A DNA stretch of 5,555 nt, taken from assembly GCA_025928435.1 (NCBI GenBank), contig JAICJM010000233.1:1-5555 (forward strand). The letters are read 5' to 3'. The notes under the pieces are model-generated. The model searched no databases. It had not been told where the DNA came from and worked only from the letters and a program-made list of their open reading frames with translations. Below are positions 2,028 through 5,555 of this stretch, in pieces; positions within the stretch are counted from its first letter, which is position 1; each line of letters starts with the position of its first letter. The DNA is from Thermoleophilia bacterium (lineage in GTDB: Bacteria > Actinomycetota > Thermoleophilia > Gaiellales > JAICJC01). The position numbers were made by a program, and so were the translations under genes.

Positions 2028-2459
2028 ATGCAGGTCGCGGTCCTGAACGGCGTCAACCTGAACATGCTCGGGCAGCGCGATCCCGTGATGTACGGAACCG
2101 TGACGCTGGCCCAGCTCGAGACCATGGTCTACGGATGGGCGAAGGATCTCCGCGCCACCGCCCGCTGCTGGCAGACGAACAGCGAGGGGGAGTACGTGAC
2201 GATGATCCACGAGGCGATCACGGGCACCGACGGCCTGATTGTGAACCCGGGTGCGTGGACGCACTACAGCTACGCGATCCGCGACGCGCTCGAGATCTTC
2301 CCCCGGCCGGTGGTCGAGGTGCACCTCTCCGACATCGAGGGCCGCGAGGAGTGGCGCCAGAAGTCGGTGATCGCCGACGTCGTCTCGCACCGCATCCTGG
2401 GCAAGGGGCCCGACGGCTACCGCGAGGCGCTCCAGCACCTGATGGACACGGTCGGATGA
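2028..2459 (+). CDS. aroQ: Type II 3-dehydroquinate dehydratase
   Basis: A 143-aa cytoplasmic enzyme converting 3-dehydroquinate to 3-dehydroshikimate, third step of the shikimate pathway; type II enzymes are small flavodoxin-fold dodecamers. Visible motifs: N-terminal LNGVNLNMLGQRDP with Asn10 and Arg17, catalytic Tyr22 in MYG, TNSEGE (49-55), NPGAWTH with Asn73 and His79, catalytic His99 in VEVHLSD, and REEWRQKS with Arg110. Length is typical (about 140-150 aa). Departures from the commonest consensus are Val9 in place of Pro (NGPNLN), Ser52 in place of His in NHEGE, and Asp102 in place of Asn in HLSN; the main catalytic residues remain. Start ATG 2028 fits the family N-terminus (MQVAVLNG). 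There is no Shine-Dalgarno sequence upstream. The stop overlaps the next gene's start (ATGA), which argues for translational coupling and a shared operon. Confidence 0.95.
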   Translation: MQVAVLNGVNLNMLGQRDPVMYGTVTLAQLETMVYGWAKDLRATARCWQTNSEGEYVTMIHEAITGTDGLIVNPGAWTHYSYAIRDALEIFPRPVVEVHLSDIEGREEWRQKSVIADVVSHRILGKGPDGYREALQHLMDTVG

Positions 2460-3532
2460 GCTACGGCCGCAGGCTGGCCGCGGCCCGCGCGGCGATGGAG
2501 GAGGCCGGGGTCGGGGCGATGGTCGTCTCGGGCCTCGTCAACGTCCGCTACCTGACCGGCTTCACGGGCTCGAACGGGCTGGTCGTGATCGGGCCCGAGG
2601 CGGCGACGCTCCTGACCGACTTCCGCTACCAGACGGCCTCCGAGCCGCTGCGGGCGTGGGTCGACGTGGAGCTGGCCGAGCGCGACGTGATCCGCACCGC
2701 GGCCGACCGGCTGGGCGACCTGGCCGCGGGCGCCGGGAAGATCGGGTTCGAGCCGGCGCTGCTCACGGTCGAGCGGTTCAAGATCCTGGCCGACGCCCAC
2801 GACGGGCTCACCGCCGTGCCCGGCCTGATCGAGAAGCTGCGCGCCGTCAAGGACGACGAGGAGCTCGCCGCGATCCGGGCGTCGGCGGCGCTGATCGAGC
2901 CGGTCTACGCGGCCATCGCCGACGAGGGCCTCGTCGGTCACTCGGAGCAGGACACGGCCTGGCGCGTGCGAGAGCTCTTCCACGCCGGCGGCGCCGACGA
3001 CATCGCCTTCGACACGATCGTCGCGTCGCACGGGCGCGGTGCCCAGCCGCACGCCAGGCCGGCGAACGTGCCAATCGGCGCCGACACCCTCGTGACGATC
3101 GACCTGGGCTGCATCCTGGCCGGATACAACTCGGACTGCACGCGCACCTTCGCGACCGGCACGCCACCGCCGGAGCTGGCCCGGGCCTACGAGGTCTGCC
3201 TGCAGGCCCAGCTGGCGGCGATGGACGCCGTCCGGCCGGGCATCCCGGCGAGCGTGGTCGACCTGGCCGCCCGCTCGGTGATCGAGGACGCCGGCTATGG
3301 CGAGCGCTTCGGGCACCCCACCGGCCACGGCCTTGGCCTCGAGGTGCACGAGGCGCCGCGGGTCGGCGCCAAGACCGCTGCAACCCTCGAGCCGGGGATG
3401 GTCGTCACAGTCGAGCCGGGTATCTACCTGCCCGGGGTCGGCGGCGTGCGGATCGAGGATCTCGTCATCGTCACGGCGACGGGAGGCGAACGACTCACCA
3501 TGTACCCTAAGGATCTCGTGACGGTCGGGTAG
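2456..3532 (+). CDS. M24-family Xaa-Pro peptidase (aminopeptidase P / prolidase type)
   Basis: A 358-aa cytoplasmic metallopeptidase expected to cleave peptide bonds next to proline, as aminopeptidase P or prolidase. The N-terminal creatinase-type domain is about residues 3-125 (MVVSGLVNVRYLTGFTGSNG, DFRYQ), and the catalytic pita-bread domain about 131-350. All five dinuclear-metal ligands of the family are present: Asp216 (VTIDLG), Asp227 (GYNSDCTRTF), His291 (GHPTGHGLGL), Glu320 (VTVEPGIY) and Glu334 (VRIEDL). Accessory His199 (QPHARP) and His298 (EVHE) are also there. Length matches the short Gram-positive YqhT/PapA form rather than the longer E. coli PepP. The loop HGRGAQPHA differs from the more usual GPN-type loop. 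ATG 2456 overlaps the aroQ stop and efp begins 11 nt downstream, the conserved order in many Gram-positives. Aminopeptidase P versus dipeptidase activity cannot be settled from sequence. Confidence 0.93.
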   Translation: MSYGRRLAAARAAMEEAGVGAMVVSGLVNVRYLTGFTGSNGLVVIGPEAATLLTDFRYQTASEPLRAWVDVELAERDVIRTAADRLGDLAAGAGKIGFEPALLTVERFKILADAHDGLTAVPGLIEKLRAVKDDEELAAIRASAALIEPVYAAIADEGLVGHSEQDTAWRVRELFHAGGADDIAFDTIVASHGRGAQPHARPANVPIGADTLVTIDLGCILAGYNSDCTRTFATGTPPPELARAYEVCLQAQLAAMDAVRPGIPASVVDLAARSVIEDAGYGERFGHPTGHGLGLEVHEAPRVGAKTAATLEPGMVVTVEPGIYLPGVGGVRIEDLVIVTATGGERLTMYPKDLVTVG

Positions 3533-3543: not shown

Positions 3544-4101
3544 ATGATCTCCACCAATCAGTTCAAGAACGGCATGCACATCGAGGTCGACGGGACGGTG
3601 TACCGGATCGTCGAGTTCCAGCACGTGAAGCCCGGCAAGGGCGGCGCGTTCGTGCGCACGAAGCTGAAGGCGCTCGGCTCGGGCGCGGTCGTCGACAAGA
3701 CCTTCCGGTCCGGCGAGAAGATGTCCCGCATCCACACCGAGGTCTCGAACGTCACCTACCTCTACAACGACGGCTCGGACGTCGTCCTGATGGACTCCGA
3801 GTCCTTCGAGCAGATCCACCTCCCGGCGGACTCGCTGAGCGAGGAGCTGCGGTTCATGAAGGAGAACGACACCGTCCAGCTGCTGCTCGTCGACGGCAAG
3901 CCGTCGAGCCTCCAGCTGCCCGCGTCGGTCGAGCTCGAGGTGGTCGAGACCGAGCCCGGGGTCCGCGGTGACACCGTCTCCAACGTGACCAAGCCGGCGA
4001 CGCTCGAGACGGGCGCGGTCGTCTCGGTGCCGATGTTCGTGAACGTCGGCGAGCGCATCAAGGTGGACACGCGCGAGGCGCGCTACATCTCCCGCGCGTG
4101 A
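3544..4101 (+). CDS. efp: Translation elongation factor P
   Basis: A 185-aa ribosome-binding factor that relieves stalling at consecutive prolines by binding near the P-site tRNA. It is full length, with the three-barrel architecture: KOW-like domain I (about 1-64) starting MISTNQFKNGMHIEVDG, OB domain II (about 66-128, LPADSLSEELRFMKENDTV), and OB domain III (about 130-185) with the EF-P signature from VSNVTKPATLETGA to VPMFVNVGERIKVDT. The domain I tip loop reads HVKPGKGGAF with Lys32 at the tip, the position modified by lysylation (EpmA) or aminopentanol in other lineages and left unmodified in some actinobacteria; Arg, needed for rhamnosylation, is absent. No modification gene is visible here. 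Its TGA overlaps the next gene's GTG (GTGA). Position between a proline peptidase and an accB-type gene is the classic Gram-positive arrangement. Confidence 0.98.
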   Translation: MISTNQFKNGMHIEVDGTVYRIVEFQHVKPGKGGAFVRTKLKALGSGAVVDKTFRSGEKMSRIHTEVSNVTYLYNDGSDVVLMDSESFEQIHLPADSLSEELRFMKENDTVQLLLVDGKPSSLQLPASVELEVVETEPGVRGDTVSNVTKPATLETGAVVSVPMFVNVGERIKVDTREARYISRA

Positions 4102-5555
4102 CCCGCATCGTCGACACCACCATCCGGCTCCTGTCCCAGCAGCCGCTGGCCGGGAACGCCTCCACGGCGACCGTGCTCGAGGTGGCCGAGATCCTCGACG
4201 GCGCGGGCTTCGCGGGGCTCGAGGTGTCCGGCGGCGGCTGCTTCGACGCGGCCGTGCGCCGCGGTGTCGAGAGCCCGTGGGACCGGATCCGGGCGCTGAA
4301 GGCGCGCTGCACGCGCACGCCGCTCCAGATCGCCGTGCGCGGCCGCTTCCTGGTCGGCTCGCGGCCGGTGTCGGACGACCTCGTGCGCCGCTTCATCCTG
4401 TCCGCCGCCGAGAGCGGCATCGACGTCTTCCGGCTGCACGATCCGCTGAACGACGTCGAGAACCTGGTGCCGGCCGCCGCCGCCGTGCGCGAGGCGGGCG
4501 GCAGGCTCTACGCGGGTCTGGCTTTCTCGGGCCAGATGGGCAACCTGGAGCGGGTGGTCGAGAAGGCCCGCCGCCTGGCCGATCTGGGCGCCGAGCGAGT
4601 GCTCCTGCACGACTCGGCCGGAGCCCTCGACCCGGGCGTGTGCGGCACCGTGCTCGAGCGGCTGGCAGGCGCCGCGGGCGTCCCCGCCGGCCTCTACTGC
4701 CAGGGGACGGGCGGCAAGGCCCTCGCCATGGCGGTCGAGGCGGCCCGGCACGATGCCGACCCGATCGCGGTCGCCGCCTACCCGGTGGCCTCGCTCCTGA
4801 ACCGGGTGGCGGCCGAGGTGCTCGGCGAGTCGCTCGCGAGCCTGGAGATCGAACACGGCATCGACGTCGAGCGGGTCTGGGAGGCGTCGCGCTTCATCGA
4901 CGCGCACGTGACCTCGCAGATGCCGGCGCTCCCCGTGCCGCCGCGGATCATCCTGCGCACCGCGATCACGCGCCTGCCGGTCGGGCTGGTCGCCGAGATC
5001 GACGCACGCCTGCGGTCGGCCGACGCGCTCGACCGTCTGGACGAGGTGCTGGCCGAGCTCGACGCCGTACGGGCCGACTGCGGCACCGCGCCGCTGGCGG
5101 CGCCGATCGGCGGCATCCTGGCCGGCCAGGCGGTCACCCACGTGCTCACCGCCCGCCGCTGGGCCGAGGTGTCCGACGAGATGCGCGCGCTCCTCTCCGG
5201 CGCCTACGGCGACCCGCCGCTCCCGTTCTCGGCCCAGGCCGCCGCCCACGCGATCCAGATGCCGACGGAGCCGGACGTCGACATGGACGACCTGCGCGAC
5301 CAGGCCGGCGGCGCGGGCAGCGAGGAGGACCTGCTGCTCGTGGCGCTCTTCGGCGATGCCGCCGCCCGCCTGCTCGAGAACCTGCGCGGCCGCGGGGGCG
5401 ACTCGTCCACGGGGGAGGGCATCGACTCGAGCCAGTCCGAGCGCATCCGCGAGCTGGTGCGGCTCGTCGAGGGCTCCGACGTCGGCGAGCTCACGGTCGA
5501 GGACGGGCCGCTGCGGATCACGGTGCGGAAGCAGGACGAGCGCCCGGCCCCGGTC
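4098..5555 (+). CDS. Degenerate carboxyltransferase (PycB/OadA-like) fused to AccB-like biotin carrier N-terminus; 3' end off window
   Basis: 486 residues are visible and the frame is open at the edge. The start is GTG 4098 in GTGA overlap with the efp stop, giving MTRIVDTTIR, which matches the family N-terminus. Residues 1-270 form an HMGL-like TIM barrel similar to pyruvate carboxylase subunit B and oxaloacetate decarboxylase alpha (DTTIR, LEVSGGGCFDA, VRGRFLVG, GIDVFRLHDPLNDVENL). Residues about 290-420 match the PYC/OADA conserved domain (RLPVGL, GGILAGQAVTHVLTARRW, EEDLLLVALFG). After a Gly/Ser-rich linker (about 430-445), residues 448-478 look like the AccB N-terminus (ERIRELVRLVEGSD, ELTVEDGPLRITVRK). 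The family's metal ligands are replaced: Asp by Leu11, carbamylated Lys by His171, two His by Tyr200 and Gln202. The TSQP motif reads LNRV (234-237). Metal-dependent carboxyl transfer is therefore unlikely and the barrel may be structural. A biotinyl domain with a lysine attachment motif should follow but is not in view. Confidence 0.85.
   Translation, partial: MTRIVDTTIRLLSQQPLAGNASTATVLEVAEILDGAGFAGLEVSGGGCFDAAVRRGVESPWDRIRALKARCTRTPLQIAVRGRFLVGSRPVSDDLVRRFILSAAESGIDVFRLHDPLNDVENLVPAAAAVREAGGRLYAGLAFSGQMGNLERVVEKARRLADLGAERVLLHDSAGALDPGVCGTVLERLAGAAGVPAGLYCQGTGGKALAMAVEAARHDADPIAVAAYPVASLLNRVAAEVLGESLASLEIEHGIDVERVWEASRFIDAHVTSQMPALPVPPRIILRTAITRLPVGLVAEIDARLRSADALDRLDEVLAELDAVRADCGTAPLAAPIGGILAGQAVTHVLTARRWAEVSDEMRALLSGAYGDPPLPFSAQAAAHAIQMPTEPDVDMDDLRDQAGGAGSEEDLLLVALFGDAAARLLENLRGRGGDSSTGEGIDSSQSERIRELVRLVEGSDVGELTVEDGPLRITVRKQDERPAPV

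Follow-up and report, generated by a model that had tools for sequence, protein, structure and literature searches.

The carboxyltransferase (CT) domains of oxaloacetate decarboxylase alpha (OadA), transcarboxylase 5S and pyruvate carboxylase are dimers, and we take their metal-ligand set to be an Asp, a carbamylated Lys and two His residues. The 5,555-nucleotide stretch of a Thermoleophilia genome analyzed here (contig JAICJM010000233.1; hereafter the window) carries the 5′ part of a gene whose product resembles these enzymes in its N-terminal region and AccB, the biotin carrier of multi-subunit acetyl-CoA carboxylase (ACC), at its C-terminus. The fusion differs from PycB (5ks8) and OadA alpha (2nx9) in the replacement of all four metal-ligand positions, in its AccB-type carrier and in NCBIfam scores below the cut-offs, and from transcarboxylase 5S (1rqb, 1rqh) in the lost metal site and the fused carrier. 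It shares with AccB of multi-subunit ACC an AccB domain (TIGR00531) above cut-off, the EAMK site, a nearby accC and genome-encoded AccD and AccA halves, but a CT-like region of about 445 residues at the N-terminus sets it apart; separate AccB matches, among the matches listed, mostly lie in much shorter frames (e.g., 158–240 aa). Another group of CT-AccB fusions, from the same class and phylum (loci L111-L128 in part, and L171-L184), has the same architecture and accC neighbor and a mean CT identity of 32–33% to the window protein, but retains the Asp, the Lys and both His residues, and is referred to below as metal-intact.

The explanation that we favor, with reasonable though far from full confidence, is that the gene encodes the AccB of ACC, N-terminally fused to a CT barrel incapable of the family's metal-dependent carboxyl transfer (Table 1). 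If true, this would place a pseudoenzyme domain inside the essential ACC, kept in two related clades, and the metal-intact versions at the same locus make the change from enzyme to non-enzyme testable step by step. The component parts are already known and their arrangement is new: searches of the open-licence PMC literature listed no description of a CT-AccB fusion or of AccB joined to an inactive CT. An earlier, sequence-only reading of the window had suggested that an inactive barrel on a biotin carrier would be a new arrangement. The AccB-type carrier, the efp-accB-accC locus and the metal-intact versions at the same locus within the class go beyond that reading.

Table 1. Features of the window; residue n of the fusion protein begins at nucleotide 4098+3(n−1).
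Feature	Position	Strand	Details
aroQ-like gene	2028..2459	+	match in 65/80 related loci
M24 Xaa-Pro peptidase-like gene	2417..3532	+	PF00557 210.8 bits; start codon ambiguous
efp, elongation factor P	3544..4101	+	TIGR00038 247.4 bits
Pseudo-carboxyltransferase-AccB fusion gene, 5′ part	4098..5555	+	486 codons, continues past the window end; P0001 (587 aa) 98% identical
CT-type TIM barrel	4098..4898	+	residues 1–267 of the fusion
L11 replacing metal-ligand Asp	4128..4130	+	sequence and profile alignments
R81, Arg of the RGRFLVG / RGQNLVG motif, retained, end of strand 3	4338..4340	+	80/80 loci; DSSP of the model
H114-D115-P116 replacing F-D-A, end of strand 4	4437..4445	+	80/80 loci, partly selected on this peptide
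H171 replacing carbamylated Lys	4608..4610	+	sequence and profile alignments
Y200 replacing first metal-ligand His	4695..4697	+	sequence and profile alignments
Q202 replacing second metal-ligand His	4701..4703	+	Gln in 80/80 loci
L234-N235-R236-V237 (LNRV) at the pyruvate carboxylase TSQP place	4797..4808	+	R236 (4803–4805) invariant, 80/80 loci
PYC_OADA conserved carboxylase domain	4974..5387	+	residues 293–430; PF02436 50.8 bits (cut-off 27)
AccB (BCCP) domain start	5442..5537	+	residues 449–480; TIGR00531 13 bits on the window part

The metal site of the barrel

Read directly from the sequences, the fusion (in full-length relatives), the loss of the ligand set, the conservation of the protein and the efp-fusion-accC locus are evident. 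In phmmer alignments to 2nx9 and 5ks8, residues L11, H171, Y200 and Q202 stand opposite D, K, H and H, while the alignment to 1rqb begins at residue 14 and thus covers three of the four ligand positions; aligned by profile to metal-intact relatives, the protein shows no gaps across any of the four motifs (E 2.4e-72). The substitutions are common to homologs, as found in 80 orthologous loci, kept of 97 confirmed in genome contigs, and in the 120 closest proteins. The loci were retrieved with the peptides EV[ST]GGGCF and FRLHDP[LM]N, so that the invariance of residues 111–118 and 42–49 is partly selected, whereas the ligand positions were not part of the selection. Across loci and closest proteins, respectively, position 11 is L68/V8/I4 and L119 plus one gap, position 171 is H49/N20/L9/D2 and H120, position 200 is Y73/H4/F3 and Y119/N1, and position 202 is Q80 and Q120; H114 occurs in 116 of the 120 proteins (Gln in the other 4) and P116 in all of them. 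The sequence-only reading had located these four replacements and the LNRV segment correctly. Its claim that all four metal ligands are lost is true of the window protein and extends to the relatives for the Asp, the Lys and the second His (retained in 0/80 loci), but in 4/80 loci the first His is still a His. Intact ligands elsewhere in the barrel were also considered, and this candidate was dropped because both the profile alignments and those of the predicted structure pass through the motifs.

The same reading had counted a catalytic TSQP motif among the losses. The motif is indeed absent, position 234, the place of its Thr, being L55/G13/M5/V3/A2/I2 in the 80 loci, but TSQP belongs to pyruvate carboxylase and not to the whole family. 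PMC5895798 describes Thr882 of the Rhizobium etli (R. etli) pyruvate carboxylase as catalytically essential, the T882A variant being devoid of oxaloacetate decarboxylation. However, the corresponding place reads ASLP in 5ks8, YGHP in 2nx9 (where a Thr lies one position upstream) and LGPGHNP in 1rqb, and since these solved PycB, OadA and 5S proteins have no TSQP, its absence here says little. A decay series in which the catalytic Thr was lost before the metal site was dropped for the same reason; in 120 metal-intact relatives the Thr place is N70/A42/S8, and an Asn stands there in L171-L184. The case for an inactive barrel rests therefore on the loss of the metal site and not on that of TSQP.

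The fusion as the probable AccB of its genome

The window protein has a CT fold of the TIM-barrel type followed by a PYC_OADA domain, as indicated by Pfam and by the structure model; HMGL-like scores 27.2 bits, below its cut-off of 29. NCBIfam scores lie far below the cut-offs (oadA 243.7 vs. 756.5; PRK09282 261.3 vs. 402), the best PRK09282 score among the scanned full-length relatives is 368.1, and in three of these the remainder outside the AccB region falls below both the oadA and the pycB cut-offs; identity as an ordinary OadA or PycB was dropped on these scores and on the ligand positions. The same three relatives all match TIGR00531 at the C-terminus with 126.8–129.6 bits (cut-off 115.2). 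The biotin domain of the window gene falls past the window end, and full-length relatives carry the biotin site: most of 120 listed relatives are about 580–594 aa long, at most 98% identical and endowed with a biotin domain. Among the 80 loci the biotinylation motif E-A-M-K is present in 75 and absent in 5, and 4 predicted fusion proteins are shorter than 500 aa. Many relatives bear the JGI label oxaloacetate decarboxylase alpha, which misleads metabolic reconstructions, while NCBI names some of them acetyl-CoA carboxylase biotin carboxyl carrier protein [Gaiellales bacterium].

In 21 genomes carrying the fusion, TIGR00531 gave one full-length match per genome, above cut-off in 20 (108.9 bits in G008) and always in a frame of at least 597 aa, further matches reaching at most 51.4 bits; in eight fetched genomes the match lies within the fusion, with an accC match on the same piece. 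In 19 of the 21, PF01039 matches AccD-type and AccA-type halves that adjoin each other, which indicates that ACC's own carboxyltransferase is encoded apart from the fusion. Both the single full-length AccB match in each tested genome and the AccD and AccA halves elsewhere are observed at the level of the genome sequences, and the fusion is most likely the cell's AccB. PYC_OADA has one match each in 15 of the 21 Gaiella-type genomes, among the matches listed. The 80 loci contain a match to efp in 78 cases, to accC in 74, to pepP in 68 and to aroQ in 65; in L030, L066, L069, L076, L078 and L079 the best accC segment does not follow the fusion directly but at a distance of about 0.6–4 kb downstream. 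In a sample of 139 genomes of the class, whose membership was taken from dataset grouping and record titles, 96 of 103 AccB matches lie in frames of at least 400 aa, and 38 genomes have no AccB match at E 1e-20.

Relatives and history of the fusion

In a tree built without the motif columns, the CT-AccB fusions form one side opposite OadA and pyruvate carboxylase (100/98), and within them the Gaiella-type (96/96) and the Miltoncostaea-type (100/100), both deprived of the metal site, are one clade each and group together; holding the metal-intact group with either of them was rejected (AU p 0.0006 and 0.0004). These trees leave out L112, L122, L133, L137, L142, L147 and L157 (fragments, broken frames or poor placing), the careful ones additionally the accBC_CT group, L125, L162 and L170, and all carry long-branch warnings, including for the Miltoncostaea-type. 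The AccC tree does not recover the Gaiella-type rows as one clade (two changes), whereas the EF-P tree does.

At E 1e-22 an AccB match was found in at least 184 of 396 genomes drawn from the phylum, and 14 further CT-AccB loci taken from this draw (L171-L184) keep D, K, H and H. All of them have accC as a neighbor, and 6 also have efp; in genomes of this kind, four separate AccB genes each adjoin an accC. A fusion confined to the class Thermoleophilia was therefore dropped, as CT-AccB genes occur in genomes from the whole phylum, and the spread of metal-intact versions across it implies that the fusion predates the loss of the metal site. Allowing for the long branches, this loss would have occurred once or twice on the line to the two clades. 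Metal-intact proteins are labeled AccB or, in one case, 2-oxoglutarate carboxylase large subunit, and one of them (P0124) matches 5ks8_C with 522.9 bits; given this closeness and the retained ligands, they are plausibly working carboxylases. A metal-intact CT-AccB together with AccC would have formed a keto-acid carboxylase, also serving ACC where it was the only AccB, and such an ancestor would then have lost the keto-acid job and kept that of ACC carrier.

L190 (4385–6457, − strand) encodes a divergent CT-AccB beside accC, with both His replaced (N, R) and the Asp and Lys kept; it may represent another loss, on a very long branch of unsure placing. L129-L144, from the same class, hold CT genes of a separate family. 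Most of these have accC and some have accB in the vicinity, the carbamyl-Lys position is variable (K, E, Y, G, S) and D-K-H-H is kept in 5 of 13 aligned members; they are possibly biotin-dependent carboxylases.

Role of the barrel and surrounding genes

According to the sequence-only reading, selection maintains the protein for something other than the reaction of its family, and the shared ligand losses, the low dN/dS of the barrel and a fold that appears intact in structure models of both clades all argue in that direction. Under the favored explanation, AccC would carboxylate the biotin on the fusion chain and AccDA would pass the carboxyl on to acetyl-CoA, while the barrel, predicted to be inactive, would do no chemistry and persist for structural reasons, probably in dimeric form and setting the number and spacing of the carrier arms. 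Since the fold is maintained in both clades while their pocket residues differ, a structural role comes first; in its simplest form this would be the dimer typical of CT domains in the family, with two carrier arms brought together. Some observations nevertheless weigh against this explanation. The AccA half was not found in G010, where only the AccD half matched, and G015 gave no PF01039 match. In the Gaiella-type the mouth of the barrel varies less than its opposite face (entropy 0.62 vs. 0.96, p 0.026), and the fixation of R10, Q14, R81, H114, Q202 and R236 goes beyond the demands of a pure scaffold. These six and D172 are invariant in 80/80 loci and are located by DSSP of the model at or after the C-terminal ends of the barrel strands.

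The latter findings would suit an allosteric sensor: the former pocket would take up pyruvate, oxaloacetate or a different anionic metabolite in a metal-free manner, and ACC would be tuned accordingly. We regard this explanation as unlikely but worth keeping in view. In the Miltoncostaea-type, however, R81 and Q14 are found in 0/120 proteins each and the mouth is not significantly more conserved than the back (0.92 vs. 1.07, p 0.31); metal-intact relatives show the mouth-to-back contrast more strongly (0.07 vs. 0.33), so that it may be inherited, and H114 and P116 were partly selected on when the loci were retrieved. In a more specific version, to be held with the same reserve, R236 and Q202 would stand in for the metal, and a keto acid or dicarboxylate would be bound by them jointly with R10, Q14, R81 and H114. 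The former keto-acid carboxylase domain would thereby signal the central-carbon status to ACC, which opens fatty-acid synthesis, on the same chain, and in the Miltoncostaea-type the same Arg would have become fixed around another pocket. A metal-independent reaction of the barrel with carboxybiotin or another substrate seems improbable: the new polar set H114, Q202 and R236 is fixed in the Gaiella-type clade, but the two clades share polar residues only partly (R236, R112, D172, often Q202), position 171 varies among H, N, L and D within one clade, and ACC has its own carboxyltransferase halves elsewhere in the genome.

Persistence of the barrel solely through its in-frame fusion to an essential AccB would explain why the substitutions differ between the two clades, but it is even harder to accept in view of the low dN/dS, of the modeled folds and of the rarity with which the domain is lost in the class sample. 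A mutation or assembly artifact in an otherwise ordinary oadA or pycB gene, which the JGI name and the existence of metal-intact relatives could suggest, has next to no likelihood; the ligand losses shared by the 80 loci and the 120 closest proteins, which form one clade in the CT trees, refute a mutation or assembly error in a single copy. The AccB of ACC with a catalytically disabled barrel remains our preferred reading; the shape of this barrel has been preserved by evolution, probably in a structural or regulatory capacity, and the fixed mouth residues of the Gaiella-type may leave room for a ligand.

On the + strand of the window the gene order is aroQ-like, M24 peptidase, efp and the fusion ORF, the latter starting with GTG in a 4-base overlap (GTGA) with the efp stop. 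The aroQ-like label is our assumption from motifs. Positions 2–1227 and about 1371–2100 of the − strand presumably encode a sensor histidine kinase and a response regulator, again by motifs that we take to be typical of these proteins, and they diverge from the aroQ-efp cluster; the putative kinase is split over two frames in the window ORF list, whereas in L001 it is a single ORF of 463 aa.
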